A stretch of DNA of 64,000 nucleotides from Alphaproteobacteria bacterium (GTDB taxonomy: Bacteria > Pseudomonadota > Alphaproteobacteria > Micropepsales > Micropepsaceae), in the NCBI GenBank assembly GCA_003158585.1, contig PMKE01000071.1:81191-145190 (forward strand), written 5' to 3'. The position numbers and the translations under genes were made by a program. A model generated the notes under the pieces. The model made no database searches, was not told where the DNA came from, and worked only from the letters and a program-made list of their open reading frames with translations. The first letter of the stretch is position 1; each line of letters opens with the position of its first letter. This document shows positions 27,340 to 44,044 of the stretch, in pieces.

Positions 27340-28164
27340 ATGCTGAGCGTCAACACGAACTCCAGCGCCATGGTCGCGCTGCAGTACCTCAACAAGACCC
27401 AGTCGGAACTGGCGACGGCACAGACCGCGATCAATACCGGCCTGAAGGTCGCGTCCGCCAAGGACGACGGTGCCACCTATGCCATAGCCCAGAACATGCG
27501 CGGCAATGTCGCCGGCTACACCGCCGTGTCCGACAGCCTCAATCGCGGCATGTCCGCTGTCGACGTCGCCATGTCGGCCGGGCAATCGATTTCCGACCTT
27601 CTGGTCTCGATGAAGCAGAAGGCGCTGTCGGCCTCCGATGCGGCGCTCGACACCGCCAGCCGCCAGGCGCTGAATCAGGACTTCACCGCCCTCAGGGACC
27701 AGATCACCACCATCGTCAACAACGCGGTGTTCAACGGCTTCAACCTGATCGACGGCTCGACCAGCATGATCACGGCACTGGCCTCCGCGGACGGCACGCG
27801 CCACATCTCTGTCGGCGCCCAGAATATGACTTTGTCCGGCTCGGTCGTTACGATCGCCAGCACAGGTTCGATTTCGACGCAGACGAAGGCGTCGACGATG
27901 ATCGCTATTGTCCAGACTTCGCTCGAAAACGTCGACTCGGCTTTGGCCAAGCTGTCTGCCGGGTCGAAGAAGTTCTCGATCCAGCTCGACTTCACCCAGA
28001 AACTCTCCGACACACTGACTACCGGCATCGGCAACATGGTGGATGCCGACATGGCCAAGGAAAGCGCGCTGCTCACCTCGCTGCAGACCAAGCAGCAATT
28101 GGGCATCCAGGCCTTGGCGATCGCCAACCAGGCACCTCAGTCGATCCTGTCTCTGTTCCAATAA
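27340..28164 (+). CDS. Flagellin 1
   Basis: The filament protein is 274 aa with both conserved ends. The N-terminal D0/D1 region reads LSVNTNSSAMVALQYLNKTQ and SAKDDGATYAIAQNMRGN. The C-terminal part has LTSLQTKQQLGIQALAIANQ and ends in ILSLFQ. The central domain (about residues 140-190) is short, with Ser/Thr-rich stretches (SGSVVTIASTGSISTQT) that are candidate O-glycosylation sites for the sugar made next door. It is about three-quarters identical to flagellin 2. A GGAG ribosome site precedes the ATG. Confidence 0.96.
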   Translation: MLSVNTNSSAMVALQYLNKTQSELATAQTAINTGLKVASAKDDGATYAIAQNMRGNVAGYTAVSDSLNRGMSAVDVAMSAGQSISDLLVSMKQKALSASDAALDTASRQALNQDFTALRDQITTIVNNAVFNGFNLIDGSTSMITALASADGTRHISVGAQNMTLSGSVVTIASTGSISTQTKASTMIAIVQTSLENVDSALAKLSAGSKKFSIQLDFTQKLSDTLTTGIGNMVDADMAKESALLTSLQTKQQLGIQALAIANQAPQSILSLFQ

Positions 28165-28459: not shown

Positions 28460-29284
28460 ATGCTTAGCGTCAACACAAACAGCGGCGCAATGACCGCGCT
28501 GCAGTACCTGAATCAGACCCAGTCTGCCTTGAACAAGACCCAGACTGCCATCAACACCGGTTACAAAGTGTCGTCCGCGAAGGACGACGGCGCCGTCTAC
28601 GCCATCGCGCAGAACATGCGCGGCAACGTGGCGGGCTATTCGGCGGTGACCGACAGCCTCAATCGCGGCATGTCCACGGTTGACACTGCCATGTCCGCCG
28701 GCCAGTCCATTTCCGACCTGCTCGTCCAGATGAAGCAAAAGGCCCTTTCGGCATCCGACGCTTCGCTCGACACGGCAAGCCGGCAGGCCATGAACCAGGA
28801 TTTCGTCGCTCTGCGCGACCAGATCACCACCATCGTCAACAATGCGGTATTCAACGGCTTCAACCTGGTCGACGGTTCGACGACCAAGATCACGGCGCTG
28901 GCTTCGGCCGACGGTTCGCGCCGCATCACGGTCAACGCCCAGAACATGAAGCTGTCCGGCACGATCGTCACGGTCAAGACGACCAACACCATTTCGACGG
29001 CTGCGAAGGCGTCGACGATGGTCAGCACCATCCAGTCGTCCTTGACGAACGTCAACTCGGCTCTGGCGAAACTCTCCGCCGGTTCCAAGAAGTACTCGAT
29101 CCAGCTCGACTTTGCCCAGAAGCTGTCCGACTCGCTGACAACCGGCATCGGAAACCTGGTCGACGCCGACATGGCGCAGCAAAGCGCGCTGCTTACGTCC
29201 TTGCAGACCAAGCAGCAGCTCGGCGTCCAGGCGTTGTCGATCGCCAACCAGGCTCCGTCGATCATCCTGTCTCTGTTCGGTTAA
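28460..29284 (+). CDS. Flagellin 2
   Basis: A second 274-aa flagellin with the same ends as flagellin 1 (LSVNTNSGAMTALQYLNQTQ; LTSLQTKQQLGVQALSIANQ; ILSLFG). The differences cluster in the central part (KLSGTIVTVKTTNTISTAAK), where Ser/Thr-rich surface loops would carry glycans. It has its own promoter, enhancers and terminator, so the two flagellins may be expressed at different times or levels. GGAGG lies before the ATG. Confidence 0.96.
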   Translation: MLSVNTNSGAMTALQYLNQTQSALNKTQTAINTGYKVSSAKDDGAVYAIAQNMRGNVAGYSAVTDSLNRGMSTVDTAMSAGQSISDLLVQMKQKALSASDASLDTASRQAMNQDFVALRDQITTIVNNAVFNGFNLVDGSTTKITALASADGSRRITVNAQNMKLSGTIVTVKTTNTISTAAKASTMVSTIQSSLTNVNSALAKLSAGSKKYSIQLDFAQKLSDSLTTGIGNLVDADMAQQSALLTSLQTKQQLGVQALSIANQAPSIILSLFG

Positions 29285-29485: not shown

Positions 29486-30712
29486 TCAGAGCTTGAGGAT
29501 TCGCGCCAGCGTGCTCGTTACCCGTGCCACGTCGCTCACCGCTATGGACGAGAAGAACGGCAGGCTGAGAACGCGCGCGTAATAGCGGTCGGCGCCGGGA
29601 AGCTGCCGGCGGCCGTAGCGGGACGCGTAATAGTGCTGGCGGTGCAGCGGATAGTAATGCACCTGGCTGCCGATGCCTTCCGCCGCAAGGCGCGTCATCG
29701 CTTCGGCCCGCGTGATGCCGCAGGCTTCGAAATCGATCAGCACGGCGTAGAGATGCCAGGTCGGCCGGCATGTCATGGTCCGTCCGATAGGCCTCAAGCG
29801 CGGCGCATAGGGCGCCAGAAGGGAGTCGTAGGCAGCCGCCAGCGCGCGCCGGCGGGCGGCGAAACGCGGCAGTTTGCCAAGCTGCGTGAGGCCCAGGGCG
29901 CATTGGATGTCGGTGGCGCGCCAGTTGAATCCGGGCTCTACGAGTTCGTAGTACCAGGGATTGGCGCGGCCTTCGGCTTCGAAGCCGTCTTCAATACTGA
30001 CGAACTCCGACGGCTCGCGGGTCATGCCGTGATTGCGCTCGCGGCGGAGCGCGGCGGCGAGAGCGGGGTCGTTCGCCGTCACCGCGCCGCCTTCGCCCAT
30101 CGTCACGGTCTTCACCGGATGGAACGAAAACACGGTCAGGTCGCTGAAGGCGTTGTCGCCCACGACGTGCTCGCTGCCCGCCGCATCGTAGCGCGTGCCT
30201 ATGGCGTGGCAGGCATCGTCGAGGATCTTGAGGCCGTGCCTGCGGGCGATTTCGGCGATCTCTTCCGCTTCGCCGCATTGGCCGTTGAGATGCACGTTGA
30301 ACAGGGCGTGAGCGCGTCCGGTGCGGGCCAGCGCCTCTTCGAGGTCGCGAGGCCGCATCAGGCCGGTATCGGGGTCCACGTCGGCGAAGACGATCTCGGC
30401 ACCTGCCAGATGAGGCGCGCTCGCCGTGGCCAGGAAGGTGATGGACGGCACGATGACCTTGCTGCCGGTCCCGAGGCCCAAAGCGCGCGCCGCCATATAG
30501 AGCGCCGCGGTGCCGTTGGCGCAGACCACGGCATGTTCGGCATGCACGGTTCTCGCCAGCGCCTCTTCGAAGCGCGCGACCAGCGGGCCGGTGGTGAGGA
30601 AATCGCCACGCAGCGCCGCTGCGACAGCTTCGATATCGTCGTCCTCGACGACCTGCCTTCCGTAGGGCAGGAAATCGGGCTTCTGTTCGGCGCGGCGAAG
30701 CGGTTGGCTCAC
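29486..30712 (-). CDS. pseC: PseC-type UDP-4-keto-hexose aminotransferase (DegT/DnrJ/EryC1)
   Basis: PseC transfers an amino group from glutamate to C4 of the PseB product, giving UDP-4-amino-4,6-dideoxy-AltNAc in pseudaminic acid synthesis (Caulobacter FlmB). The 408-aa protein has FLPYGRQVVEDDDIEAVAAAL, a DACHAIGTRY motif and the PLP Lys in FSFHPVKTVTMGEGG. I place the start at GTG 30712, overlapping the pseB TGA by 4 bp (GTGA); the 640-aa ORF of the track runs on into pseB in another frame. It is the last gene of a long minus-strand operon. Confidence 0.93.
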   Translation of the reverse strand: MSQPLRRAEQKPDFLPYGRQVVEDDDIEAVAAALRGDFLTTGPLVARFEEALARTVHAEHAVVCANGTAALYMAARALGLGTGSKVIVPSITFLATASAPHLAGAEIVFADVDPDTGLMRPRDLEEALARTGRAHALFNVHLNGQCGEAEEIAEIARRHGLKILDDACHAIGTRYDAAGSEHVVGDNAFSDLTVFSFHPVKTVTMGEGGAVTANDPALAAALRRERNHGMTREPSEFVSIEDGFEAEGRANPWYYELVEPGFNWRATDIQCALGLTQLGKLPRFAARRRALAAAYDSLLAPYAPRLRPIGRTMTCRPTWHLYAVLIDFEACGITRAEAMTRLAAEGIGSQVHYYPLHRQHYYASRYGRRQLPGADRYYARVLSLPFFSSIAVSDVARVTSTLARILKL

Positions 30713-31803
30713 GCATAGGCCTCGTGCAGCAGCATCTGAAGCCCGCGCGCGTCGAGCTGCTCGGGATTGTTGTCGCTGGAGTAGGCGAAACCCTCTGCGA
30801 CGGGTTTGGCGCCGCGGTTGAGATAGGCTTCGCGCGCCGCCGCCGCGAAGCTGGCGAGAATCACGAAGCGGTCGGCGAGTTCGACGGTCCAGTGCGAATC
30901 GTCGGCGGGGATCATGGTCTCGTGCAGCTTCTCGCCGGGACGGATACCGATGATCTTCTGCGGCAGCTGCGGCCCCAGAAGGGTCGCCAGTCCCGTGATG
31001 GTGGTCGAGGGAATTTTCGGCACGAAGATTTCGCCGCCGCGCGACATTTCCATGCTCGACAGCACCAGGTTGACGCCCTGGGTGAGCGTGATCCAGAAGC
31101 GCGTCATGCGTGCGTCGGTGATCGGTAGTTCGCCCGCGCCGCTTTCCGCCAGCTTCTTGAAGAAGGGCACCACCGAGCCGCGCGAACCGAACACATTGCC
31201 GTAGCGCACTACCGCGAAGCGCGTTCCCTCGGCGCCCGCCAGATTGTTGGCGGCGACGAAGATCTTGTCGGAGGCGAGCTTGGAGGCGCCGTAGAGGTTG
31301 ACCGGGTTGGCCGCCTTGTCGGTGGACAGCGCGATCACCTTCTTCACGTTGCGCCTCAATGCGGCGTAGACGACGTTCTCCGCCCCGAACACGTTGGTGC
31401 GGATGCATTCGAAGGGATTGTATTCGGCGGTCGGCACCTGCTTGAGGGCGGCGGCGTGGATCACGTAGTCCACGTCGCGCATGGCCATATCCAAGCGGTC
31501 TCGGTCGCGCACGTCGCCGATGAAATAGCGCATGAAGGGATACTGCTCGGTGCCGAACACCTGTTGCATCTCGTACTGCTTCAGTTCGTCGCGCGAGAAG
31601 ATGATGAGGCGGCGCGGTCTGTACTGCTTGATCACCGTCTTGACGAAATGCTTTCCGAACGAGCCGGTGCCGCCGGTCACCAGGACGGCTTTGTCGTTGA
31701 GATCGAGCCAGGGCTGCGAGAAGTCGCGCAGCGTCGGCTGCGGCGCTTCCGTCTGTTCGATGTTGTCGCTTGCGAGATAGATTTTTTTGGCTCTCTGCGC
31801 CAT
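30709..31803 (-). CDS. pseB: PseB-type UDP-GlcNAc 4,6-dehydratase (5-inverting)
   Basis: PseB starts the pathway by converting UDP-GlcNAc to the 4-keto-6-deoxy-altro sugar (Caulobacter FlmA). The 364-aa extended SDR has VLVTGGTGSFGKHFVKTV, FSRDELKQYEMQQVF, VIHAAALKQVPTAEYNPFE and the catalytic YGASKLASDK, all typical of PseB rather than RmlB. The first ~30 residues are an extra N-terminal leader. It is coupled to pseC and lies 44 bp after the GH57-like gene on the same strand. Confidence 0.94.
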   Translation of the reverse strand: MAQRAKKIYLASDNIEQTEAPQPTLRDFSQPWLDLNDKAVLVTGGTGSFGKHFVKTVIKQYRPRRLIIFSRDELKQYEMQQVFGTEQYPFMRYFIGDVRDRDRLDMAMRDVDYVIHAAALKQVPTAEYNPFECIRTNVFGAENVVYAALRRNVKKVIALSTDKAANPVNLYGASKLASDKIFVAANNLAGAEGTRFAVVRYGNVFGSRGSVVPFFKKLAESGAGELPITDARMTRFWITLTQGVNLVLSSMEMSRGGEIFVPKIPSTTITGLATLLGPQLPQKIIGIRPGEKLHETMIPADDSHWTVELADRFVILASFAAAAREAYLNRGAKPVAEGFAYSSDNNPEQLDARGLQMLLHEAYA

Positions 31804-31847
31804 TGAAGCCCCGCGGAATATGTCTAATGGATCGTTGCAGAACGCGG

Positions 31848-33806
31848 TTAATAATCGGCTGACGAGGAGCCCACGCTGAAGCGGAATCGCCGCGGCCCTT
31901 TGGAGAACGGGGTCGGTTTGCGCGTGTCGTCGAGTTCCAGGGCCGAAAGCGCGAACTGGCAGAACACCCCGCCGCGCAACCGCCGGTGGGTCAGAAGGCC
32001 GAGCAAGGGGGCCGTGGCGCGGTCGACCTCGACGCGGATGCCGGTCCTGCCGTCGCCGATCTCGGCCCAGCCTTCCGTCATGCCGACGCCGTGCGAGGCC
32101 GAAACCAGGAACGACACCGGCGCCCCGTGGTCCACGTTCTCGTCAGCGAGTGCAAAAGTTTCCGCTTCCTTACCGCCGTTGTGGGTCCTTAACGAAAGCC
32201 GGTCCCAATCGAAGGCACCGGGAAGCAGCGTGACGTGGCCGAGCCGGAGGCATCCCTTGCCCCAGTCGTCCCAGTTGAAAGCGAGGTCGAAATCGATCTG
32301 CGGGCGCCACCCGTGGAAGCGCAGCGTCTTCTCGATGGCCCCCTTGGGCGTCTCGATGCGCGCGAAGACGAGAACGTCTTCGCCCTCATTCCACCTCTCA
32401 GCCGTGCACCATTCGAGGTCCGTGACTTTGTGCTCTCCGGGCGCCTCGAACACGGCGTTGCCGGTGTACCAGTCGGCCTGGAGGGCGATGTCGTCGAAGC
32501 TGCCGAGCGGCAGCATGCCGATGGGCGCCGTGTCCTGGCCGCGGAAGCGCACGCTGGAAAGGGCCAGCCCCCGGCGGCGGTCGAGGCGTGCTTCGAGCGA
32601 GGGCGTTACGATGTCGAAATGACGCGCTTCGACGATCTCGCCATGCGGCGCCGGAGGAGCGGGCGAGGCTTGCAGATTCCTACGCGCCTGTGCGGCACGT
32701 AGCCTGCGGCCGAGATCGTCCCAGCGCTTCATGGTGATGTGGGTGCGGAAGTCGCTCGACCACAGAAAGCAAAGTTCCTTCCACGCTTCGGGTTCCGCCC
32801 CTACCGTTTTGAGCGCGCGATAAAGGCTCTCGCAAGCGGCGTTGACGGCAAGGTCGTCTCGGCCGGTGACGGCCCAGCGCGACAGATTGTATTTACGCTG
32901 CTTCTTGACGGGGATGGGGCAGGCGGCGGTTTCCAGCCGCAATGCCTCGCCCGTCGCGTTCTGCGCCAGCTTCGAAGGCAGGACCATCGTGCAGCCGGGT
33001 TCCGCGGCCAGCCGCGCGAAGGCCGTCTCCAGCTTGCTCCATTCGGAAGTGGAGCCCAGCTTCTCTTCGGTGCGATAGCGCCCGGGGCGGAAATCGAAAA
33101 TCTCCGCGTCGCTGGCATAGAGGCACAACACGCGCTCGCTGCCGCGCTGGGCGCGGACATAGGCGAGGTAATCCTCAAGCTCGATGTCGCCGTGAGCGAA
33201 GCGTTGCAGCTTCTGGAAGGCGACAGTGTTGGTCCAGAGGAGTCCGATGCTGCGCCCGTCGCTGCCGAGGGCGCGCTGCGGCCGGAAACCCGTCTCCGCC
33301 GGCCATTGGTGATGCGAGGCGGGATTGTCCCAGTCCATCAGAAGCGTGCGATAGCCGGCGTCGAGATAGAGCCCGACCAACCCGCCCGAATAGGCCTGCT
33401 CGTTGACGAGGGCGATGGAGGGCTGCACGCCGAGCAGGCTGCGATAAACCTCGTTGCCGATGGCGAGATTGGCTTCCGTCACGCGCCAAGGCACCAGGGG
33501 ACCGATCATCTGGCTGTAGCCCGCGCCGATGAACTCGACGCGCCGTTCGGCGACGAGACGCTTCAGGGTCTCGATCCACACCGGATCGCGCCGGGCGATT
33601 TCCTCCAGCGTGAAGCCCGAGGCCTCGATGCCGACGGGACCGCATTTCTCGGCCAAACGCAGCAGGGGCCAGTAGCAGCGCGCGATCACTTCGGCGCGCT
33701 GTTCCTCCTCGATGGAGGAATAGGCGAGGTTGAGATGGAAGAAGGCGAACAGGCTGAGCGTGTCCGCCTCTGTGTCAAGCTGGCGGACGGGGAACGGGGC
33801 GTTCAT
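31848..33806 (-). CDS. Glycoside hydrolase family 57-like protein
   Basis: From ATG 33806 it is 652 aa, without signal peptide. The N-terminal barrel resembles GH57: LFAFFHLNLAYSSI, VEFIGAGYSQMIGPL, ALVNEQAYSGGLVGLYLDAG and LLMDWDNPASHHQW, with a DAE motif in LYASDAEIFDFRPGRY that sits where GH57 enzymes carry an acidic catalytic residue. The C-terminal 250 residues look like a beta-rich domain. The ATG overlaps the ATP-grasp stop by 4 bp. A cytoplasmic hydrolase or transglycosidase inside a nucleotide-sugar operon is unusual; it may act on a lipid- or nucleotide-linked intermediate, which is inference. Confidence 0.68.
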   Translation of the reverse strand: MNAPFPVRQLDTEADTLSLFAFFHLNLAYSSIEEEQRAEVIARCYWPLLRLAEKCGPVGIEASGFTLEEIARRDPVWIETLKRLVAERRVEFIGAGYSQMIGPLVPWRVTEANLAIGNEVYRSLLGVQPSIALVNEQAYSGGLVGLYLDAGYRTLLMDWDNPASHHQWPAETGFRPQRALGSDGRSIGLLWTNTVAFQKLQRFAHGDIELEDYLAYVRAQRGSERVLCLYASDAEIFDFRPGRYRTEEKLGSTSEWSKLETAFARLAAEPGCTMVLPSKLAQNATGEALRLETAACPIPVKKQRKYNLSRWAVTGRDDLAVNAACESLYRALKTVGAEPEAWKELCFLWSSDFRTHITMKRWDDLGRRLRAAQARRNLQASPAPPAPHGEIVEARHFDIVTPSLEARLDRRRGLALSSVRFRGQDTAPIGMLPLGSFDDIALQADWYTGNAVFEAPGEHKVTDLEWCTAERWNEGEDVLVFARIETPKGAIEKTLRFHGWRPQIDFDLAFNWDDWGKGCLRLGHVTLLPGAFDWDRLSLRTHNGGKEAETFALADENVDHGAPVSFLVSASHGVGMTEGWAEIGDGRTGIRVEVDRATAPLLGLLTHRRLRGGVFCQFALSALELDDTRKPTPFSKGPRRFRFSVGSSSADY

Positions 33807-35014
33807 GCGGTCTCGATCCTGAGACAGGCGAGTGCGTCGTTCGCGGCCTTCAAGGCCACCTCGCGTGTGGCGCCGGTCGCCAGAACCATCGCGGCCGAGG
33901 GTCGCTTGTCGCCCGCCGGCGGGATGACGTCGCCGAGCCTGGCCGTGACGATCATATCGGCGACGCCGGGAATCTTGCTCGCTTCGTCGGCGCCGCGGAT
34001 GGAGACGACGCGCCCGGCCTTGGGAAAAGCGTAACGCTGGATGACGGGCTTCAGATATTTCGGCTCCAGGTCTTCGACAGGCTCGCCCAGCGCCACTCGG
34101 ATGGCGTTGCCGACGAAATCGACGCCGGTGTTGAGGGGAATTTCCCGCGTGCAAAAGAAGCCGCCGGAAAGCCGCGCCGCCAGTTCGATGACGTAGACAT
34201 CGCCCTTGTGCACCACGATGTCGCCCTTGACGGTGCCGTCGGTGACGCCGAGGGCTGCCGCGGCCCGCCCCACCACGTCCTTCACCTTCTCCTGGATGTC
34301 GGCCGGGAGATGGCTCGGCAGGTCGCCGCCGTTCTCGATGAAATAGGGTGCGTAGCGTTCGAGGTATTCGTAATTGCGGTCGGAGAAGCCGGGCGTGTGG
34401 CAACGCCCGCCGGCCACGATCGATTCCGTCGAGATCTGCGGACCTTCCAGATACTGCTCGACCATGACGCGCTGGGTGGGCGAGTGCGAGCGGGCGAACT
34501 GGAAGGCTTTGTCCAGATCCTGCAACCGCGCCAGGCGCTGCACGCCGCGCGAACCGCGGCTGTCGACCGGCTTGATGACCAGATCGCGACCGCGCTCTAC
34601 GGCGATGCGTTGCAAGGCCTGGGGTGTCGCCACTTCCGAGAACCAAGGAACTGGAACGCCCCTCTCGGCGAAGCGCTGCTTCATGGCGAGCTTGTCGCAA
34701 GCCAGCTCCGCCGTCTCGCGCGTGATCCCGGCAAGGCCGAGGCGCGTGTTCACTGCGGCGACCGTCAGGGGCGCGTCGGCGGCGACACAGATGACGCCGT
34801 CGATCTTGCGGATTTTCGTGTGGAAGCGGAACGCCGCCGCCGCCGTCATATCGGGTCCGTAGACGTCGGCGATCAGACAGGAATCGGCGTGCGCGAAGCC
34901 GGGCGCTTCGGGGTTGATGTCGGAGACGACGACATAAAGCCCCATCTCTTTGGCCCGGCGCGCGGCATCGGCGGCCTCGACGCCGCCCGAAACGATGAGA
35001 AGGGTTTTTTCCAC
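33803..35014 (-). CDS. ATP-grasp domain ligase in the sugar operon
   Basis: A 403-aa ATP-grasp enzyme. Domain order: Rossmann-like N-terminus (LLIVSGGVEAADAARRAKEMG), then the ATP-grasp fold with LVIKPVDSRGSRGVQRL (phosphate loop), VMVEQYLEGPQISTES and the Mg-binding GDVYVIELAARLSGGF. This resembles carbamoyl-phosphate synthase-like and PurK-like ligases that join a carboxylate to an amine or thiol. In this locus it could make an amide on an amino sugar. Start is GTG 35014 behind a G-rich site. Substrates unknown. Confidence 0.85.
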   Translation of the reverse strand: MEKTLLIVSGGVEAADAARRAKEMGLYVVVSDINPEAPGFAHADSCLIADVYGPDMTAAAAFRFHTKIRKIDGVICVAADAPLTVAAVNTRLGLAGITRETAELACDKLAMKQRFAERGVPVPWFSEVATPQALQRIAVERGRDLVIKPVDSRGSRGVQRLARLQDLDKAFQFARSHSPTQRVMVEQYLEGPQISTESIVAGGRCHTPGFSDRNYEYLERYAPYFIENGGDLPSHLPADIQEKVKDVVGRAAAALGVTDGTVKGDIVVHKGDVYVIELAARLSGGFFCTREIPLNTGVDFVGNAIRVALGEPVEDLEPKYLKPVIQRYAFPKAGRVVSIRGADEASKIPGVADMIVTARLGDVIPPAGDKRPSAAMVLATGATREVALKAANDALACLRIETA

Positions 35015-35032
35015 TTTTGCCCCCTACTCAAT

Positions 35033-35163
35033 TGTCATCCCGGGCAAGCGTCTTGAGCGAAGCGAAAGACGCGCGACCCGGGACCCACCTGGAAACATGC
35101 GTTTGTTTTGAAGTGGGTCCCGGCTCTGCGCGCTGCTTTCGCAGTGCTTGGCCGGGATGACAT
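35033..35163. repeat. Intergenic repeat family B, copy 1 (complete)
   Basis: The ends TGTCATCCCGGGCAAGC and GCTTGGCCGGGATGACA are inverted copies (16 of 17). Inside are shorter inverted pairs such as GGGACCCAC/GTGGGTCCC. It occupies the gap between SDR and ATP-grasp genes. It may be transcribed as part of the operon and fold in the mRNA. Confidence 0.82.
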
Positions 35164-35196
35164 ATTTTTGTGAACGGACAGGGTTGGCACCAACCA

Positions 35197-35949
35197 TCAG
35201 AAGTACAATCCGCCGTTGACGTTGATGGTCTGTGCCGTGATGTAGGACGACGCATCGGAGGCCAGGAACACCACCGCATCGGCGACTTCGCTGGTGCGGC
35301 CCATGCGTTTCAGGATGATGTTTTCCGCCGCCTTCTGCACGCTCGCCGCCGCCATGCCGGCCGCCGCCATGTCGGAGGCGATGAGGCCCGCGGCCACGGT
35401 GTTAGAGCGCACCCCGTGCGGCGCGCCGAAACGCGCGACGACCTGCGCCAGCGAGATCAGGCCCGCCTTCGACGCGGCATAGTGCGCCGTGCGCGGCCCG
35501 CCATACTGTCCGCTGACCGAGCCGATGTGGACGATGGAGCCGCCGCCCGCTTCCGCGATCAAGGGCAGGAACGCCTGCGCGCAGACGAACGGTCCCCTCA
35601 GATTGGTGGACAGGATGAAATCCCAGTCCGCATCACTCACCTGATCGAAGTCGGTCGGTTTGTTGATACCGGCATTGTTGACCAGGATCGAGACGGGGCC
35701 GAAACCACGCGCGTCCCTGGCGACGGCCTCGACGCCGGCGCGGTCGGTGACGTCCATTTGCAGGGCGAGCGCCCGGCGGCCCATGCCTTCGATCTGTTTG
35801 ACGACGGCGCCGGCCTCTTCCCGCTTCTCGCGGAAGGTGAGGATGACGTCGGCGCCCGCTTCGGCGAGACCGAGCGCGATGGCTCGCCCGATGCCGCGGC
35901 TGCCGCCGGTGACGACGGCGTTCTTACCGGAAAGGGAGAAGCGGCTCAT
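35197..35949 (-). CDS. Short-chain dehydrogenase/reductase
   Basis: A 250-aa classical SDR: cofactor motif VVTGGSRGIGRAIALG, ILVNNAGI, catalytic Ser in IGSVSGQYGG and Tyr-Lys in YAASKAG. R at the end of the second strand (TFREKREE) suggests NADPH. It looks like FabG but is coupled by 4 bp to the transketolase pair, so it likely reduces or oxidises a sugar intermediate in the same pathway. C-terminus TINVNGGLYF is normal. The track ORF to 36774 is spurious extension. Confidence 0.9.
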   Translation of the reverse strand: MSRFSLSGKNAVVTGGSRGIGRAIALGLAEAGADVILTFREKREEAGAVVKQIEGMGRRALALQMDVTDRAGVEAVARDARGFGPVSILVNNAGINKPTDFDQVSDADWDFILSTNLRGPFVCAQAFLPLIAEAGGGSIVHIGSVSGQYGGPRTAHYAASKAGLISLAQVVARFGAPHGVRSNTVAAGLIASDMAAAGMAAASVQKAAENIILKRMGRTSEVADAVVFLASDASSYITAQTINVNGGLYF

Positions 35950-36917
35950 GAAAGACCTTCCTTGCGTGCGATGGCGCGCCTGGCGGCCGCCGCGATGAAC
36001 GGCGCCGTGATCTGGAAATGCTCGGCCAGTTCGTCCGGCTCGCCGGAGGTGCCGAAGCAATCCCTCAGCCCCACGAACTCGATGGGGCAGGGAAGGTTCT
36101 GCGTCACCGCCTCGGCGACCGCGCTGCCCAGCCCGCCGAAGATGTTGTGGTCTTCGGCCGTGACCATGCAGCCGGTCTCTTCGGCACAGCGCCGCAGCAA
36201 ATCGCTGTCGATGGGCTTGATGGTCGGCATGTTGACGACGCGGGCGTTGATGTCGTCCTCGGCCAGCAGCTCGGCGGCTTCCAAGGCACGCGCCACTTCC
36301 ACGCCGCAGGCCACCAGCGTTACGTCGATGCCATGACGGATGATCTGGCCCTTGCCTATCTCGAACACGTGGTCGTCGCCGAACAGCCGCTTGGCGGGAC
36401 TGCGCCCGGTGCGCATGTAGACCGGACCTTCGAATTCCAGGATGGCGCGCGTCGCCTGCGCGGTTTCGATCGGATCGGCGGGCGAGATCACCGTCATGCC
36501 GGGAATGGCGCGGAAAGCTGCGATGTCTTCCAAAGCCTGCGCCGAGCCGCCGTCGGGGCCGACGTCGAGGCCGGGATGGCTCGCCACGATCTTGGCGTTG
36601 CGCTTGGCATAACCGATGGAGAGCCGCGCCTGTTCGTAGGCGCGTTCGAGGAAGCAGGCGAAGCCGGTGACCACCGGCAGCATGCCGACCGCGGCCAGGC
36701 CGCCGGCCGCCGCCATCATGTTCTGCTCGGCGATGCCGAACTGGATCAGCCGCTCGGGATGCGCCTTGCGCCAATGATGCACGCCGGTGCCGCCGGCAAC
36801 GTCGGCGTCGAGCACGACCATCTTGGGGAATTCGTCGGCCAAGCCGACCAGCGCCTTGCCGAAGGCCTCGCGCAGAGAATCGCCGGATGAACCGATAAGG
36901 GCGGGTGCGTCAGACAT
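35946..36917 (-). CDS. Transketolase C-terminal subunit
   Basis: The 323-aa chain holds the Pyr and C-terminal domains of a transketolase. Catalytic Glu is in IQFGIAEQNMMAAAGGLA, ThDP-facing segments are LDADVAGGTGVHHW and GFACFLERAYEQARLSIGY. It ends in the usual C-terminal domain. It overlaps the N-terminal subunit gene by 8 bp, which fits equimolar synthesis. Such split transketolases occur in sugar and secondary-metabolite clusters and in archaea. The acceptor sugar is unknown. Confidence 0.9.
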   Translation of the reverse strand: MSDAPALIGSSGDSLREAFGKALVGLADEFPKMVVLDADVAGGTGVHHWRKAHPERLIQFGIAEQNMMAAAGGLAAVGMLPVVTGFACFLERAYEQARLSIGYAKRNAKIVASHPGLDVGPDGGSAQALEDIAAFRAIPGMTVISPADPIETAQATRAILEFEGPVYMRTGRSPAKRLFGDDHVFEIGKGQIIRHGIDVTLVACGVEVARALEAAELLAEDDINARVVNMPTIKPIDSDLLRRCAEETGCMVTAEDHNIFGGLGSAVAEAVTQNLPCPIEFVGLRDCFGTSGEPDELAEHFQITAPFIAAAARRAIARKEGLS

Positions 36918-37800
36918 CGAGAAGCTCCTTGATTTCGTCCTGTTCCGCGCCGAGGGCGGCGAGCGCCGTTTCTGCCTGTTCGCGCGAGAGTTTGACGCTG
37001 CCGTGCCAAGCGGGGCTGCCTTCCATGTAAGGCACGCCCTTGCCCTTCAGTGTGTGGGCGACGAGCACCGAGGGGCGCTCGCGCGTTGAGGCCGCCAGAT
37101 GCAGCGTCGAGAGAATTTCGGGGATGTTGTGGCCGTCGATCTCGAACACCGTCCAGCCGAAGGCGCGCCATTTGTCGGCCAAGGGCGCGATGCCGCAGAT
37201 GTCCTCGTTGAGGGCGTCCGACTGCATCTTGTTGTAGTCGATAATGGCGCAGAGGTTGTCGAGCTTGTGGTGGGCGGCGCACATGGCGGCTTCCCACACT
37301 TCGCCTTCCTGCATTTCGCCGTCGCCGAGCAGCGTGTAGACGCGGGGTTTGAGCTTCTGCATCTTGAGGCCCAGCGCCATGCCGACCGCGACGGAGAAGC
37401 CTTGGCCGAGCGAACCTGTGGAGGTCTCGACCCACGGCAGGTCGCGCACATGCGGATGGCCCTGGAAGCGGCTGCCCAGCCTGCGCAGGGTAAGCGCGTC
37501 GGTCTTGTCGCAGAAGCCGTGCCAGGCGCCGATGGCATAGAGCGTCGGGCAGGCGTGACCCTTCGACAGCACGAAGCGGTCCCGGCCCGGATCGTTGATG
37601 GTGGCCGGCCAGGCGTTCATCTCGGCGCCGTAGAGGCAGGCGAGGATGTCGGCGCAGCTGAGCGCGCCGCCGGGATGTCCCGAGGTGGCGCGGTAGATCG
37701 AGGCGATGGTGTGGCGGCGGGTGAATAGCGCGGCCTCGGCGATCTGGGTTTCCAGATCGGGACTGGCCGCGTCGTCACGCAAAGATGTGGCAGTGCTCAT
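36910..37800 (-). CDS. Transketolase N-terminal subunit
   Basis: The 296-aa chain carries the ThDP diphosphate-binding domain. The GDG-N motif is YTLLGDGEMQEGEVWEAAMC..IIDYNKMQSD and SGHPGGALSCADILACLYG is the conserved N-terminal segment. LPWVETSTGSLGQGFSVAVG adds to the assignment. I start at ATG 37800; the track start at 37905 lies inside the neighbouring gene. Together with the next gene it forms one transketolase, which would move a two-carbon ketol unit. Confidence 0.92.
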   Translation of the reverse strand: MSTATSLRDDAASPDLETQIAEAALFTRRHTIASIYRATSGHPGGALSCADILACLYGAEMNAWPATINDPGRDRFVLSKGHACPTLYAIGAWHGFCDKTDALTLRRLGSRFQGHPHVRDLPWVETSTGSLGQGFSVAVGMALGLKMQKLKPRVYTLLGDGEMQEGEVWEAAMCAAHHKLDNLCAIIDYNKMQSDALNEDICGIAPLADKWRAFGWTVFEIDGHNIPEILSTLHLAASTRERPSVLVAHTLKGKGVPYMEGSPAWHGSVKLSREQAETALAALGAEQDEIKELLDV

Positions 37801-37813
37801 GGTCGGGTTCCCC

Positions 37814-38980
37814 TCAAGCGGCCAGGCGCAGGCGCGCGCGGCCGAGTAAATCGGTGAAACGCAGAATTTCGGCGCCGGGGGCGCGCTCACGCGCCTCGGC
37901 CGCAATCTCGTCGGCGAAGCCGCGCGACATCACGACGACGACGCCCGGTTTGGTTTCGGCCAGTGCTTCGGGACCCTTCAGAGCGCAGCCGTGGCGCTCG
38001 GCGACGTGGGCCATAAGATGTGTGTCGATCAGCACACGGAGTTTCTTGGGATCGAAGCCGCCGTGCACCACCAGGCTGTCGAAGATGCGCCCGGCGCCCC
38101 ACATGGCGATGCCTCTGGGTGCCAGCGACGCCAACTCGGCGGCGACCGCTGCCAGCGCTTCGATGTTGTGGGCGCGGCCGGCGATATAGCTCGAGATCAA
38201 CTCGTAGGCGCGATCCACTTCGCCCGGATCGGCGGCGGCGGGCACCTCGGCGTAATCGGCTTTCTTCGCCACCAGGAACAGATTTTCGCGGTCTGCGGGA
38301 TCGGGGCGTTCGATGATCGCGAAGCCCGCGTTCTCCACCATGCGCGTCAGGGTGCGTTCGGAGAAGTGATAGAGGTGTTTGTCGATGAACCACTCTTCCA
38401 CCACGTCGTCGGCGCCGATCAGCTGGATGTTGGGCGCGTCCAGGATGAGAAGCCCGTCCGTTTTCAGCGTGCGGTGATGATCGCGCAGCACCTCGGCCGG
38501 ATGCGCCAGATGCTCGACGGTGTGGCAGGAATGGACGACGTCGAAGCGCGCCGTTTCCAGCGCGGCGTCTTCGATGCGCGAGACGGTAAGTTCGGTGCGC
38601 GGCATGCCGGCGCAACTCTGTGCCACGCGCTCGTCGGGTTCGACGGCGACGATCTCGGCTTCTGGTGCCGTCTCCAGCAGCGCCTTGGCGAAGCTGCCGC
38701 GGTTGGAACCGACATCGAGCAGCGAGAACGCGCCGTCGATGTGCCGGCGCACGGCGTCGATGGCGATCTTGGTGCGGAAGCCTTTGCCGTAACGCACATT
38801 TCCCCAGTCGGCGCCGCTCGAAACGGCGGGTGCGGCGCGCGGCGCGCGGTCGGCGCGCGGCAGGCTCTGCACCAGCCCGCAATGAGCGCAAACGTGAATG
38901 CCGATGCCGCGGGTCGAACGTTCCGGCGCATAGACGAATCCAAGCTCGTCGCGACCGCAGAGTTCGCAGATGTCCGGCAT
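37814..38980 (-). CDS. Zinc-finger SAM-dependent methyltransferase (sugar C-methyltransferase type)
   Basis: The 388-aa enzyme has three parts. First comes an N-terminal zinc-binding knuckle, CELCGRDELGFVYA...CAHCG. Next is a class I SAM fold with FSLLDVGSNRGSFAKAL and HSCHTVEHLAHPAEVL. Last is a C-terminal domain with MWGAGRIFDSLVVHGGF and PGVVVVMSRGFADEI. This architecture is the one known from C-methyltransferases that add a methyl to deoxysugars. It opens the minus-strand operon, or follows the sulfotransferase gene after 48 bp. The exact acceptor is not predictable. Confidence 0.88.
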   Translation of the reverse strand: MPDICELCGRDELGFVYAPERSTRGIGIHVCAHCGLVQSLPRADRAPRAAPAVSSGADWGNVRYGKGFRTKIAIDAVRRHIDGAFSLLDVGSNRGSFAKALLETAPEAEIVAVEPDERVAQSCAGMPRTELTVSRIEDAALETARFDVVHSCHTVEHLAHPAEVLRDHHRTLKTDGLLILDAPNIQLIGADDVVEEWFIDKHLYHFSERTLTRMVENAGFAIIERPDPADRENLFLVAKKADYAEVPAAADPGEVDRAYELISSYIAGRAHNIEALAAVAAELASLAPRGIAMWGAGRIFDSLVVHGGFDPKKLRVLIDTHLMAHVAERHGCALKGPEALAETKPGVVVVMSRGFADEIAAEARERAPGAEILRFTDLLGRARLRLAA

Positions 38981-39028
38981 TGAAACGAATCCAGGAAGAA
39001 ACCGGTAACTATCTTCCGCCGCGCTTGC

Positions 39029-39856
39029 TTAATAATTCACTACGTATTCAGGCCGCGACGAATAGCCCAGCCGCTCCATCATGGGGTTTGCAATGCGCTC
39101 GAACCGGCTGCGCTGCACTTCGTCCAGCAGCTTGTCTTCGGGGCGGTTCACATTGTGCGGGCGCGCGAACATCGCGAAATATTCCTCGCGAAAGGCAAGG
39201 CCGAGGAACTCGTAAAGCGAGCGTGCCGCCGTTGGGCTGGCACGCAATTCCTCCAGACGCAGGAACAGGCTGCGGCCGGGCAGCGCCGCCAGCGATTCCA
39301 GGATCACGCGATTGATCTCGGCCCAGTGCCAGGCGATGCGCTCGAACTGGCTGAAGCTGCGGAACGCCTCGGCCGCTGGATCGCCGGGCCGGGGCAGGGG
39401 CCACCAGTATTTTTTTTCCGGCGGCGGCGCGGGGTTGTGCACCGGGTCCTCGACATGGGCGCGCAGCACTTGGGTGGAGCGGTCGTCGTAGCACTCGTCC
39501 GCCAGCTTGTTGAAAAAGGAGCCGGCCACCTTCCGGCCGTCGCGCACCAGATGGACGAACTTGGCTTCCGGAAAGAGCGCGGCGAGGTCGCCGATCAGCC
39601 AGGAGAGCTTGTTCGACGAATCACCCCAAAAGGGCTTCTCGCAATAGCGGACGGCGGCGAGGTGAGTCGCGGAAAGCAGTTTGCGCGCCGCCTCCCCGTC
39701 GGCCAGGCCCATGGTGCGGCGCACGCCCAGCGGCTGCACCAGATGCACCATGTATTCGTGATGCATCTCGACGCCCGGCACGGCGGATAACGCCTTGTGC
39801 AGCATGGCGGTTCCCGAACGCCCGCTCGAAACCACGAAAAACGGCCTTGTGGACAA
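39029..39856 (-). CDS. PAPS-dependent sulfotransferase
   Basis: The protein carries the 5'-PSB loop in FFVVSSGRSGTAMLHKAL at its very N-terminus and the 3'-PB-type region in KFVHLVRDGRKVAGSFFNKL. Those are the PAPS-binding motifs of the sulfotransferase family. The C-terminal part is helical with RSLYEFLGLAFREEYF. I use TTG 39856 (275 aa) because GGGGG lies 6 nt upstream; GTG 39901 is an alternative. The track start at 40615 lies in the NeuB gene. It is divergent from the NeuB-family gene and may sulfate the sugar or glycan made here. Confidence 0.85.
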   Translation of the reverse strand: MSTRPFFVVSSGRSGTAMLHKALSAVPGVEMHHEYMVHLVQPLGVRRTMGLADGEAARKLLSATHLAAVRYCEKPFWGDSSNKLSWLIGDLAALFPEAKFVHLVRDGRKVAGSFFNKLADECYDDRSTQVLRAHVEDPVHNPAPPPEKKYWWPLPRPGDPAAEAFRSFSQFERIAWHWAEINRVILESLAALPGRSLFLRLEELRASPTAARSLYEFLGLAFREEYFAMFARPHNVNRPEDKLLDEVQRSRFERIANPMMERLGYSSRPEYVVNY

Positions 39857-39876
39857 GTCGCGCCCCCGTCCCCTCG

Positions 39877-39891
39877 TTAACCCTCTCTTAG
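39877..39891. promoter_or_regulatory. CtrA-like TTAA-N7-TTAG in the divergent sulfotransferase/neuB spacer
   Basis: TTAA, CCCTCTC, TTAG between the two divergent starts. It keeps the 7-bp spacing of CtrA boxes with one mismatch in the second half. Confidence 0.4.
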
Positions 39892-39934
39892 CCAACCGCA
39901 CTTTAGAAACCGTTAAGACACCAACGGGGTTGTC

Positions 39935-40795
39935 ATGCAGCCGGTCTTCATCGCCGAAGCCTCCAGCAATCACGGTCGCGATCTGACGCGTGCCCTCGGC
40001 TTTGTCGATGCGGCGGCAGAGGCCGGCTGCGACGCGGTGAAATTCCAGCTTTTCCGCATCGACCGCCTGTTCGCCCCCGAAATCCTCGCCCGCAGCGAGA
40101 AGCATCGTGCCCGTCGCGAATGGGAACTGCCGCTCGAACATCTGGCGCCGATTACCGAACACTGTTCGGAGCGCCGAATACTGTTTTCCTGCACGCCATT
40201 CTATCTGGAAGCCGTTGAGGAGCTTCGGCCCCACGTCGCCTTCTACAAGATCGCCTCCTACGAGCTGCTGTTCGCCGACCTGCTGCGGGCCTGCGCCACC
40301 ACCGGCAAGCCCGTAATGCTCTCGACCGGCATGGCCACGATGGAGGAAATCCTCGAAGCGGTCGCCGTGCTGCGTCAGGCGGGAGCTGCGGACATCACCC
40401 TGCTGCATTGCGTCTCGGCCTATCCGGCGCCCGTCGGCGAAGCCAATCTCTCCGCCATCGCGGCGCTGCGCGAAGCAACCGGCTGCAAGGCCGGCTGGTC
40501 GGATCACACGCGCCGTCCCGCGGTAATCGAACGCGCCGTGCATCGCTGGGGCGCGGAGGCGGTGGAGTTCCATCTCGATCTCGACGGGCACGGCGCCGAA
40601 TACGCCGCGGGACATTGCTGGCTGCCCGGGGAGATCGCGCCGGTCATCGCACGCATCCGCGAATCGTTTTCAGCGGACGGCGCGGGATTCAAGGAACCGC
40701 AACCATCGGAGCGCGAAGATCGCGACTGGCGCGCCGATCCGGCCGACGGCATGCGTCCGTTGCGTCACATCCGTGCCGACTGGGTGCCTGTATGA
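39935..40795 (+). CDS. NeuB-family nonulosonate synthase (PseI/SpsE type), lacking the SAF domain
   Basis: The enzyme condenses PEP with a 6-deoxy aminohexose to give a nine-carbon acid such as pseudaminic or legionaminic acid. Only 286 aa: the TIM barrel is complete, with FIAEASSNHGRDL, GCDAVKFQLFRID, FYKIASYELLFADL, VMLSTGMATMEEI and HCVSAYPAPVGEANL. The C-terminal antifreeze-like SAF domain of typical NeuB proteins is missing. The usual EKHFTLD becomes EFHLDLDGHGAEY. The gene overlaps the SpsF/SpsG fusion by 4 bp (ATGA). Confidence 0.87.
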   Translation: MQPVFIAEASSNHGRDLTRALGFVDAAAEAGCDAVKFQLFRIDRLFAPEILARSEKHRARREWELPLEHLAPITEHCSERRILFSCTPFYLEAVEELRPHVAFYKIASYELLFADLLRACATTGKPVMLSTGMATMEEILEAVAVLRQAGAADITLLHCVSAYPAPVGEANLSAIAALREATGCKAGWSDHTRRPAVIERAVHRWGAEAVEFHLDLDGHGAEYAAGHCWLPGEIAPVIARIRESFSADGAGFKEPQPSEREDRDWRADPADGMRPLRHIRADWVPV

Positions 40796-42555
40796 GGATC
40801 GTCGCCGTCATCCAGGCCCGGATGGGCTCGACGCGTCTGCCCGGCAAGGTGCTGAAGCCCATCGCCGGCAAGCCGCTGCTGTGGCACATCGTCCATCGCC
40901 TGAGGAAATCGCGCCTCATCGAAGAGGTCGCCATTGCCACCAGCGTGGGTCCGCTGGACGACGCCATCGCCGAGTTCGGCCGTCAGAACGGCGTCACCGT
41001 GGTGCGCGGCCCGGAAGACGACGTGCTGGCGCGCTTTGCCCGCGCTGCCGAACTTCTGGATGCCGACATCATCGTGCGGGTGAATGCCGACGCGCCCTTC
41101 ATCGACGCGGATTTCGTCGATCATCTCATCACGGCGATGATCGAGCAGAACTGCGATTACGTGCTGCTGGAGGAGAACGCCCAAACCGCGCATCAGGGCG
41201 TCGATCCCATGACGCGCCGCGCCCTCGACAAGCTGATGATGGATGCCGCGGGCGATCCGGTAGCGCGCGAGCATGTCACGGGCTATTTCAAGCTGCATCC
41301 CGATTTCGTGCCCATCGCCCGCGCCAAGCCCTATCCCAAGCTGGCGCGCGACGCGGGCCGCCTCACCATCGACACGCCCGACGACCTAGCCTTCGTGGAA
41401 GCGGTGCATGCGCGCCTGGAAGCCAAGGCGGGCGAAGCCTCGCTCGCCGATCTTCTTCTGCTGCTCGAAAGGGAACCGGCTTTGCGCGGCATCAACGCCC
41501 ACGTCCGCCAGAAAGAGATCGCCCCGCAAGGCGGCCTCGCCCTGATCCGCTGCGACGGCGGCGGCTCCTACGGCTTCGGACACGTCAAGCGCATGATCGC
41601 CTTGGCGCGCGCCTTGCGCGACGTCCAGGGCATCGGCGCCGTGTTTGCCGTCAACGGCAGCGAAGACGCGCTGCCCGCCATCCGTCAGGCCGGTTTTGCA
41701 GCACATCTTATCGACGGTCCGCATGCGACATTGCCCGGCGTCGAGCCCGATCTGCTGATCCTCGATTGCCGCGACGGCCCCACGCGCGCCGAAGTCGAAG
41801 CCTGGAAGGCGCCGCTCGTCGCGGTGATCGATGATGCTTCCGAGCGGCGCCTCGCCGCCGATTTCGCCTACTACCCGCCGGTACCGCAGACCGAGCGTCT
41901 CGATTGGCAGGGCTCGAATTGCGCCGTTCGCATTGGCTGGGAATGGGCGCTGTTGGGATTGTCGCCGACGGCCGGCCGGCCGCAGTCGCACTCTTCTCTC
42001 CCGACGCTGCTGGTGACGATGGGCGGCAGCGATCCCTTCGGACTGACGCTGCGTGCCGCCAATGCGCTCGCCATGCTCGAACCCGCCTTCCGGGCCCGCT
42101 TCGTCATCGGGCCCGGATTCAAAAACAAGGACCGCATCGCGAAAACAATCGTCTCTCTGCATTCGAACTTCGAGACCATCGAAGGCGCCGACGGGCTGGC
42201 CACCGAATTCGCTTCCTGCGATCTGGCCTTGGCGGCGTTCGGCGTGACGGCCTACGAACTGGCGGCCTTCGGCGTGCCGGCGATCTATCTCTGCATCAGC
42301 GAAGACCACGCACTGTCCGCTTCGGCCTTCGAGCGCGCGGGACTGGGCGTGTCGCTGGGCTTGGCGTCGGGGGCCGGCGACCGGGCGATCGCCAAGGCCG
42401 TGTGGGCGCTGCTCGGCGACAACGAGCGCCGCCATGAAATGCACACCGCCAGTCTGATGACCATCGACGGCAACGCTGCCGCGCACATCGCCGCCGATTT
42501 GGCCGCCGCTCTGTCCGCGAAACGCGAAACTAACCTGGCGAAAGCCGCGAGCTGA
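40792..42555 (+). CDS. Fused cytidylyltransferase (SpsF/PseF-like) and PseG/SpsG-like UDP-sugar hydrolase
   Basis: 587 aa in two parts. Residues 1 to about 235: an SpsF-type nucleotidyltransferase starting MRIVAVIQARMGSTRLPGKV, with DIIVRVNADAPFIDADFVDHL. Residues about 245-580: a PseG/SpsG fold starting LALIRCDGGGSYGFGHVKRM, with LLVTMGGSDPFGLTLRAAN and LALAAFGVTAYELAAFGVPA. In Bacillus spsE-spsF-spsG these are separate neighbours of a NeuB gene; in pseudaminic acid loci they correspond to PseF and PseG. Fusion and 4-bp overlap with neuB support joint work. The 3' end overlaps the next gene by 26 bp, tail to tail. Confidence 0.88.
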   Translation: MRIVAVIQARMGSTRLPGKVLKPIAGKPLLWHIVHRLRKSRLIEEVAIATSVGPLDDAIAEFGRQNGVTVVRGPEDDVLARFARAAELLDADIIVRVNADAPFIDADFVDHLITAMIEQNCDYVLLEENAQTAHQGVDPMTRRALDKLMMDAAGDPVAREHVTGYFKLHPDFVPIARAKPYPKLARDAGRLTIDTPDDLAFVEAVHARLEAKAGEASLADLLLLLEREPALRGINAHVRQKEIAPQGGLALIRCDGGGSYGFGHVKRMIALARALRDVQGIGAVFAVNGSEDALPAIRQAGFAAHLIDGPHATLPGVEPDLLILDCRDGPTRAEVEAWKAPLVAVIDDASERRLAADFAYYPPVPQTERLDWQGSNCAVRIGWEWALLGLSPTAGRPQSHSSLPTLLVTMGGSDPFGLTLRAANALAMLEPAFRARFVIGPGFKNKDRIAKTIVSLHSNFETIEGADGLATEFASCDLALAAFGVTAYELAAFGVPAIYLCISEDHALSASAFERAGLGVSLGLASGAGDRAIAKAVWALLGDNERRHEMHTASLMTIDGNAAAHIAADLAAALSAKRETNLAKAAS

Positions 42556-44044
42556 GAAAACCGCGCACCTGTGCGAAGACGTCGGCCCAGTCGCCGCGCT
42601 GCTTCGGCATGATACAGGCGGCAGACGGCGCGAACGGTTCATAGGTGCAGCCGAAGCTCGTCCAGCTCGTGTCGTAGAGAACCTTGCAGGTGGCGACGCC
42701 CGCCCCGGCGGCCAGCCACGAGACGGCGGTCGGCGCGCTGACCATCACATCGAGCGTCGAGAGCAGCGCCGCCGTGCGGTCGAGTTCGTTCTTCTGATCG
42801 ATGCCTTGCGGCACCACGATGTCGCGTCCGCTCATGGCGGAGAGCGTTGCGATTTCCTCCGGCTTCGCGTCGTATTGCGCGGAGACCACCGTGCCCTGAA
42901 GGTCCCGGATGAAAGAGGCCCAGGCTTCGAGCGGCGCGTATTGCACGGCGCGGCTTCCGCCTGTGGAGCCGCTGCGCCAGCAGATGCCGGTGAGGGGACG
43001 CGGAAGCTCTGCGAACGCCGCGCGCCAGCGTTCCTGCTCCGCGGGATCGGGCTTGAGGTAGGCATGCGGCGCCGGGAATTGATCGAGACTGTTCCGCAAG
43101 AAACGCGGCAGCGTGCCCATCTCCACTGAGGCGTTGGCGCCGCCCGCATTCTGCAGCCAGTCGTAATGGGCGCGAATTTTCCCTTCGTGGTTATCGATGC
43201 GTGAAGGATGCACGGCTATTTTTGGGAACGAACGCGCCAACAAATCCACCAGCCTCGGCTCGCATTCGAGGAGGATGCTGCCCCCTTCCGCCGCGGCGCG
43301 TTCAGCCAGTTCGGGGATCATGCTGGCGAACATGATCTGGTCGCCGACGCCCTGCTCTGCGGTAACGAGAAGCCTGGTGCGCTTCAGGCAGGAGTCGTTC
43401 CAGCGCGGCAGTCCGTGGTCGGCAAGCGGCACCTTTCCGGCAATCTTCAGCCGTGCGGCGTAGTCGCGCCAGCCGCGCCGCAATTCTCCGCGCAGCAGAT
43501 GGAGTACGGCGCGGTTGAGCCGGGCCTGCGCGCTGTCCGGCTCGGACGCCAACGCGCCGCCGTAAAGCGCCAGCGCCTCGTCGTATTCTCCTTCGTCGGC
43601 CACCAGATCGGCGAGATTGACCAGCGCCGCCCCATAGCCCGGCCTGCGTAAGATGGCCTCGCGGTAATGGGCACGGGCGCGTTCCACATCGCCCGTCTCG
43701 CGGTAGACCGAGCCCAGCGTCAGCCACAACTCCGGCGCCTCGGGGTTTCGTGCCAATGCGGGCTTGAGCAACGCTTCCGCCGCCGCGAACTGTCCCTGGG
43801 CCCGCAACAGGTTGGCGAGGTTGACCAGCGGCTCAAGACGACCGGGCTCGATCGCCAGCACCCGGCGATAGAATTCCTCCGCCGGTCCCGCCATGCCGAG
43901 CACGCGCGCCGTGTTGCCGAGGGCGAACAGGGTGCGCGTGTCGTCCGCTTTCAGCGCCAGAGCCTGCTCGAAGGCTTCGATCGCTTGCGCGTGGCGGCCG
44001 TCGGCGGTGAGCTTCAGTCCTTGGGCATAGGGATCGCGGGACAT
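42530..44044 (-). CDS. Second TPR-glycosyltransferase, FlmG/FlbA-like paralogue
   Basis: The 504-aa protein has TPR units over residues 1-200, such as GRHAQAIEAFEQALALKADD, AAEALLKPALARNPEAPEL and YDEALALYGGALASEPDSA. The C-terminal half (TRLLVTAEQGVGDQIMFASM, VVSAQYDAKPEEIATLSAM, DVMVSAPTAVSWLAAGAGV) parallels the FlmG-like protein at 24490. Here, next to the CMP-sugar-forming enzyme, it is a strong candidate for flagellin or FlaEY-like protein glycosyltransferase. Divergent spacing of 106 bp from the FlaEY-like gene holds two CtrA boxes. Confidence 0.82.
   Translation of the reverse strand: MSRDPYAQGLKLTADGRHAQAIEAFEQALALKADDTRTLFALGNTARVLGMAGPAEEFYRRVLAIEPGRLEPLVNLANLLRAQGQFAAAEALLKPALARNPEAPELWLTLGSVYRETGDVERARAHYREAILRRPGYGAALVNLADLVADEGEYDEALALYGGALASEPDSAQARLNRAVLHLLRGELRRGWRDYAARLKIAGKVPLADHGLPRWNDSCLKRTRLLVTAEQGVGDQIMFASMIPELAERAAAEGGSILLECEPRLVDLLARSFPKIAVHPSRIDNHEGKIRAHYDWLQNAGGANASVEMGTLPRFLRNSLDQFPAPHAYLKPDPAEQERWRAAFAELPRPLTGICWRSGSTGGSRAVQYAPLEAWASFIRDLQGTVVSAQYDAKPEEIATLSAMSGRDIVVPQGIDQKNELDRTAALLSTLDVMVSAPTAVSWLAAGAGVATCKVLYDTSWTSFGCTYEPFAPSAACIMPKQRGDWADVFAQVRGFLSSRLSPG

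Follow-up and report, generated by a model that had tools for sequence, protein, structure and literature searches.

The canonical route to flagellar pseudaminic acid, PseB-C-H-G-I-F, is that of Campylobacter jejuni and Helicobacter pylori and of the Caulobacter flm genes, in which the glycosyltransferase FlmG combines tetratricopeptide repeats (TPR) with a GT-B domain (PMC7591256). In Shewanella oneidensis, PseB and PseC are present, whereas PseH, PseG, PseI and PseF have no clear counterparts; the flagellin of this species carries a mono-N-acetylated nonulosonic acid (274 Da) together with an O-methyl-containing group of 236-264 Da (C9H16O7, C10H18O7 or C11H20O7). Deletion of sfmA-D there leaves flagellin at its unmodified mass, while deletion of sfmE gives a slightly smaller shift (PMC3765264). 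C. jejuni, too, has pseudaminic acid that bears a methylated hydroxyacid as an amide, di-O-methylglyceroyl (PMC3068675), and Treponema denticola has a flagellin glycan of 450.2 Da that is needed for filament assembly (PMC9481697). Here we describe a flagellar nonulosonic acid locus of an alphaproteobacterium of the Micropepsaceae, lying at positions 29,486-44,044 of a 64,000-nucleotide stretch ("the window": assembly GCA_003158585.1, contig PMKE01000071.1, positions 81,191 to 145,190). Judged by its gene content, it represents a genuine and internally consistent version of the route to flagellar pseudaminic acid and is closest to the Shewanella Sfm system; a transketolase stands where that system has the IlvB-type enzyme, and a previously unrecognised partner from glycoside hydrolase family GH57 is present.

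Gene content of the locus and the predicted pathway

The source assembly is 92.7% complete; the curated cut-offs used here are those of NCBIfam equivalog models, and domain calls are from Pfam. All of the genes named in an initial annotation of this DNA are open frames in the places it gave them. Its assignment of PseB and PseC to the canonical pathway was confirmed by the curated models: pseC, encoding the aminotransferase (29486..30712, minus strand, GTG start), scores 441.6 bits with TIGR03588 against a cut-off of 423.5, and pseB, encoding the 4,6-dehydratase (30709..31803, minus strand), scores 513.9 bits with TIGR03589 against 407.75. Its calls for NeuB and PseG need refinement. The NeuB-family synthase (39935..40795, plus strand) is only 286 amino acids (aa) long, has PF03102 as its sole domain and falls below the PseI cut-off; it is thus not a canonical PseI, and its lack of a SAF domain had been overlooked. 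The PseG-type hydrolase (TIGR03590, E 8e-31, below the cut-off) is fused to an SpsF-type cytidylyltransferase (CTP_transf_3, PF02348) in a single protein (40792..42555, plus strand).

Between pseB and neuB, all on the minus strand, lies a block of further genes. They encode a 652-aa GH57-like protein (31848..33806; PF03065, E 3e-12); a predicted ATP-grasp carboxylate-amine ligase (33803..35014; LAL_C2 plus ATP-grasp); a FabG-type reductase of the short-chain dehydrogenase/reductase (SDR) family (35197..35949; PF13561); the C-terminal half (35946..36917; PF02779 and PF02780; split transketolase 6yaj, E 5e-87) and the N-terminal half (36910..37800; PF00456; split transketolase 6yak, E 2e-85) of a split transketolase; an S-adenosylmethionine (SAM) methyltransferase with an N-terminal Cys motif (37814..38980; PF13489); and an accessory sulfotransferase with a TTG start (39029..39856, the upper coordinate being approximate; PF13469). 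The genes form two units that diverge from about 39.9 kb, and overlaps of 4-8 bases link pseC with pseB, gh57 with the ATP-grasp gene, the SDR gene with the C-terminal transketolase half, the two transketolase halves with each other, and neuB with spsFG.

On balance we favor the view that the locus encodes a flagellin pseudaminic acid pathway with a changed third step, in which ligation of an acid replaces acetylation by PseH. PseB and PseC would yield UDP-4-amino-4,6-dideoxy-AltNAc, and the ATP-grasp ligase would then join a larger carboxylic acid to its 4-amino group, which becomes N7 in the finished sugar, rather than PseH adding an acetyl from acetyl-CoA. The split transketolase and the SDR would build and reduce the polyhydroxy chain of that acid, with the methyltransferase and sulfotransferase decorating it; the most likely output of the block, as predicted from its enzymes, is a methylated polyhydroxy acid joined by the ATP-grasp enzyme to the PseC amine. 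The PseG-type domain would remove UDP, the short NeuB, whose active site may be more open, would condense the bulky sugar with phosphoenolpyruvate, and the SpsF-type domain would convert the product to a CMP-sugar for transfer to the two neighboring flagellins by FlmG-like TPR glycosyltransferases. The GH57-like protein would contribute a step that stays constant and goes with the short NeuB. Ligation at the PseC amine is suggested because an ATP-grasp protein, with L-amino acid ligases among its closest relatives of solved structure, takes the place of the acetyltransferase, and because the core sugar of Shewanella is mono-acetylated. On paper, a reduced 3-deoxy-octonic acid that bears one, two or three O-methyls and loses water has exactly the compositions C9H16O7, C10H18O7 and C11H20O7, which is a sign of consistency and not structural evidence.

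Distribution of the block

The GH57-like protein, seemingly the most specific member of the block, was used as the search probe. A scan of a genome collection gave 246 relatives, from which 80 loci were fetched, 43 of them with full context (26 alphaproteobacterial and 17 from elsewhere). The fetched loci span Alphaproteobacteria, relatives of Geobacter and Pelobacter, Syntrophomonas, Actinomycetota, Acidobacteriota and one methanogen; recurrence of the set in 80 loci rules out chance or an annotation error. The protein was found in 9 genomes of the class sample, an even set of 289 alphaproteobacterial genomes, and a phylum-wide sample of 299 genomes gave a match in the source genome alone, so that the block is rare overall.

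Among the 43 full-context loci, ATP-grasp and methyltransferase genes are each present in 42, the SDR and the PseG-type half each in 38, a NeuB in 32, a transketolase in 31 and an acetolactate synthase (ALS)-type thiamine diphosphate (ThDP) enzyme in 7. In all 79 loci holding both, the ATP-grasp and GH57 genes share a strand, and they overlap by a median of about 4 bases. The association with pse genes and flagellins that had been proposed at first was borne out by this comparison: the 26 alphaproteobacterial loci include a flagellin in 24 and pseB in 20, along with transketolase in 24 and ATP-grasp in 25. Relatives of the first TPR protein (24490..26244) adjoin flagellins in 41 of 83 loci. 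Genome-wide, PseB scores above the cut-off in 8 of 9 alphaproteobacterial carriers and 19 of 21 others, compared to 72 of 289 in the class sample, which rules out an O-antigen module without pse genes, one of the outcomes that the initial annotation had named as speaking against its proposal. The full neuB-to-pseC set is also found within 13 kb on a plasmid of Solidesulfovibrio carbinolicus, though neither that stretch nor several of the non-alphaproteobacterial loci have a flagellin beside the block. Correlations of between-gene distances mostly tracked phylogeny and were not used.

The missing PseH

As initially reported, no PseH is seen in the locus; none scores above the cut-off in the source genome or in nine relatives. 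A custom profile, built from nine PseH-like genes of canonical loci and searched within about 10 kb of pseB, likewise left the window locus unmatched. It detected a PseH-like relative near pseB in 33 of 54 canonical loci (24 of 45 without the nine seeds) compared to 1 of 83 block loci, a large contrast in which the trials are not independent, the block loci being related by descent and pseB lying inside the fetched stretch in 38 of the 83. GH57 and both transketolase halves are absent from all 54 canonical loci, and ATP-grasp is present in 3. Near pseB, the block and a PseH-like enzyme are mutually exclusive. The sole block locus with a PseH-like acetyltransferase has it between the flagellins and flaF (L031:17052-17678).

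Several points weigh against the replacement of acetylation by acid ligation. Divergent acetyltransferases escape the strict PseH model, and an unlinked member of the GNAT family could still acetylate; since the Caulobacter PseH counterpart, FlmH, is redundant (PMC7591256), loss of PseH alone is no proof that it has been replaced. PseB was not found in one carrier genome (G004), the ATP-grasp and transketolase homologs were not recognisable at one locus (L015), the likeness to sfm was judged by gene content and protein lengths, and the pathway as proposed leaves the role of the GH57-like protein without explanation. The redundancy of FlmH, together with weak GNAT matches elsewhere in the source genome, would also suit a scheme in which an unlinked acetyltransferase makes ordinary Pse5Ac7Ac, to which a second glycan unit, assembled independently by the block, is added. 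We consider this unlikely, given that PseH-like genes and the block are mutually exclusive around pseB across phyla, that the block has no extra glycosyltransferase, and that it is strictly paired with a special NeuB, as described below.

Chain-building, ligating and decorating enzymes

At 10 loci a single-chain enzyme of the ALS type takes the place of the split transketolase beside the SDR gene, and no locus has both. Two loci (L228 and L229) hold the short NeuB, SDR, methyltransferase, ALS-type ThDP enzyme, ATP-grasp, SpsF/PseG and GH57. Additional genes encode class-III aminotransferases and a KduI/IolB protein at some loci, and a PIG-L deacetylase and a formyltransferase at others, variants to be expected if the acid is exchangeable; the latter insertion suggests an N-formyl variant. 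The aminotransferase and KduI/IolB-family pair was seen, with no ThDP enzyme found, at L063, L072, L074 and L098, which belong to Actinomycetota and Methanocalculus, while the PIG-L and formyltransferase genes lie between ATP-grasp and GH57 at several loci (for instance L082:8377-9995). On plasmid pDCAR1, just past the block, a second split transketolase pair lies beside radical SAM and methyltransferase genes (L164:26678-28352).

The methyltransferase had been called a zinc-finger C-methyltransferase. Its nearest PDB sequences are the sugar 3-C-methyltransferases KijD1 and TcaB9, matched over the whole length but with weak E values; Pfam gave no match to the zinc-binding or C-terminal C-methyltransferase families (PF08421/PF08484). 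Some antibiotics contain branched sugars made by split ThDP enzymes, and this, with the KijD1/TcaB9 resemblance, would be in keeping with the proposal, also made at first, that the transketolase and methyltransferase act on the nucleotide-sugar ring to give a two-carbon-branched, C-methylated nonulosonic acid. We think this quite improbable: the ThDP slot is held by either a transketolase or an ALS-type enzyme, the C-methyltransferase families are unmatched, the ATP-grasp enzyme and the missing PseH would be left unexplained, and in Shewanella the 274-Da sugar is without O-methyl, the methyls, O-methyls among them, being on the side group (PMC3765264). The suggestion that the sugar is amidated or sulfated fared better. 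Amidation fits the ATP-grasp ligase, whereas sulfation could apply to a subset only; the sulfotransferase is present in 18 of the 43 full-context loci and in none of the 17 from outside the Alphaproteobacteria.

The short NeuB

The window NeuB belongs to a single clade, with support of 100/100, that is made up of 50 NeuBs of 283-296 aa from block loci and set off by a long branch (1.68) from the NeuBs beside canonical pseB, nearly all of which are at least 327 aa long. (One odd "short" entry, L042, clusters with the canonical NeuBs and presumably accounts for the single protein of 344 aa in the block set.) Of the 289 genomes in the class sample, the 9 with the short NeuB are precisely the 9 with the GH57-like protein (P about 3e-17 under independence), a strict pairing that the initial annotation had missed; these NeuBs are 64-80% identical to that of the window, with the next best at 45%. 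The 229 genomes sampled from the class of a Burkholderiales carrier include 5 with the short NeuB, and all 5 have GH57, once on another contig; the two are also found together on a single plasmid record. A second NeuB elsewhere acting as the true PseI has been ruled out for the source assembly and several complete relatives. In a genome of the same genus that lacks the block (G239, locus L207), the NeuB frame spans 340 aa and so matches PseI in length, and the block and PseI-length NeuB routes may thus replace one another within a genus.

That the short NeuB is not a pseudaminic acid synthase at all, making instead a 3-deoxy-ulosonic acid for the side group, would agree with its lack of a SAF domain and its distance from PseI, but is very unlikely, as it is the only NeuB in the source assembly and in complete carriers (G004, G140, G116, G014 and others), which would then be missing a synthase, as it directly adjoins pseC and pseB in L230, and as a 290-aa NeuB-type protein is present in the PDB (6ncs).

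The GH57-like protein

An AlphaFold2 model of the GH57-like protein (mean predicted confidence, pLDDT, 88) has the GH57/GH38 fold, with 1k1x as the best fold match. Glu136 and Asp233, both invariant, align with two acidic residues of 1k1w that we take to be its catalytic pair; fold and pair together place the protein in the GH57 clan. It shares the fold and, by alignment, both catalytic acids with the GH57 4-alpha-glucanotransferase (1k1w/1k1x) and with GH38 mannosidases, but is only 12% identical to 1k1x and forms a subfamily of its own, which accompanies a nonulosonic acid pathway. An invariant segment, K301-K302-Q303-x-K305-Y306, could bind an acidic substrate.

Because GH57 is constant while the chain-building enzymes vary, its most likely place, as far as gene associations indicate, is in the route to the sugar core, with the short NeuB. 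A role as a replacement for PseG is disfavored by the PseG-type half being nearby in 38 of the 43 loci. More tentatively, a GH57-family enzyme may carry out an essential intracellular step with the SAF-less NeuB on a bulky N-acylated pseudaminic acid, making this a second, phylum-crossing route to flagellar pseudaminic acid in which ATP-dependent ligation of interchangeable acids replaces acylation from acetyl-CoA. Among the search results listed, we saw no paper that links pseudaminic acid pathways to GH57 or transketolase.

If the proposed pathway is correct, it accounts for the modified pseudaminic acids of many bacteria that lack PseH, connects the orphan sfm operon of Shewanella with a gene set of several phyla, and provides, in the SAF-less NeuB and the GH57 subfamily, genome markers for an unusual N-acyl group on flagellar or surface nonulosonic acids. 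The GH57 step is the most novel part and is amenable to bench testing.

Flagellar genes and other neighbors

On the pseC side, flbT (26379..26804, plus strand; PF07378, E 8e-43), flaF (26764..27114, plus strand; PF07309, E 7e-32) and two flagellin genes (27340..28164 and 28460..29284, both plus strand; Flagellin_N, 105 and 107 bits) lie between pseC and the gene for a TPR protein (24490..26244, minus strand; TPR families), a candidate flagellin glycosyltransferase comparable to FlmG. A second TPR glycosyltransferase candidate (42530..44044, minus strand; TPR families) is found beyond spsFG. A FliA-type promoter upstream was looked for by eye and rejected because of wrong spacing. Divergent from the second TPR gene is that of a 919-aa SBBP beta-propeller repeat protein (44151-46910), with homologs in the equivalent position at six other loci (L015, L019, L021, L025, L051 and L070). 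A third, divergent flagellin is encoded elsewhere in the source genome (G000:C12:8515-8916, locus L003).

Comparison with known systems

In its product, the pathway proposed here would come near to that of T. denticola, for which Kurniyati in 2017 reportedly described a mono-acetyl pseudaminic-type nonulosonic acid with methoxy-trihydroxyhexanoyl on N7; the two are compared by product description only. The C. jejuni modification is likewise a methylated hydroxyacid amide, but on N5, dependent on Cj1295 and proposed to arise by acetyl exchange (PMC3068675). With the canonical pathway the window shares PseB, PseC, a PseG-like domain, a synthase of the NeuB family, a cytidylyltransferase and an FlmG-like TPR glycosyltransferase; it differs in lacking PseH and the SAF domain of NeuB and in the added GH57, ATP-grasp, ThDP, SDR and methyltransferase genes.

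The closest likeness is to S. oneidensis sfmABCDE (PMC3765264), which also serves in flagellin modification and likewise includes a short NeuB (290 aa), a ThDP enzyme, a FabG-type SDR, a SAM methyltransferase and an ATP-grasp protein. All of these, with PseB and PseC, have counterparts in the window, though the Shewanella ThDP enzyme is IlvB-like where the window has a split transketolase. The sfm operon has no reported GH57 and no sulfotransferase, and is accompanied by Maf proteins rather than TPR glycosyltransferases. The gene content of L228 and L229, minus GH57 and SpsF/PseG, is that of sfmABCDE. To call the window locus an undescribed system, as the initial annotation did, was therefore too strong, since sfmABCDE is apparently the other ThDP variant.

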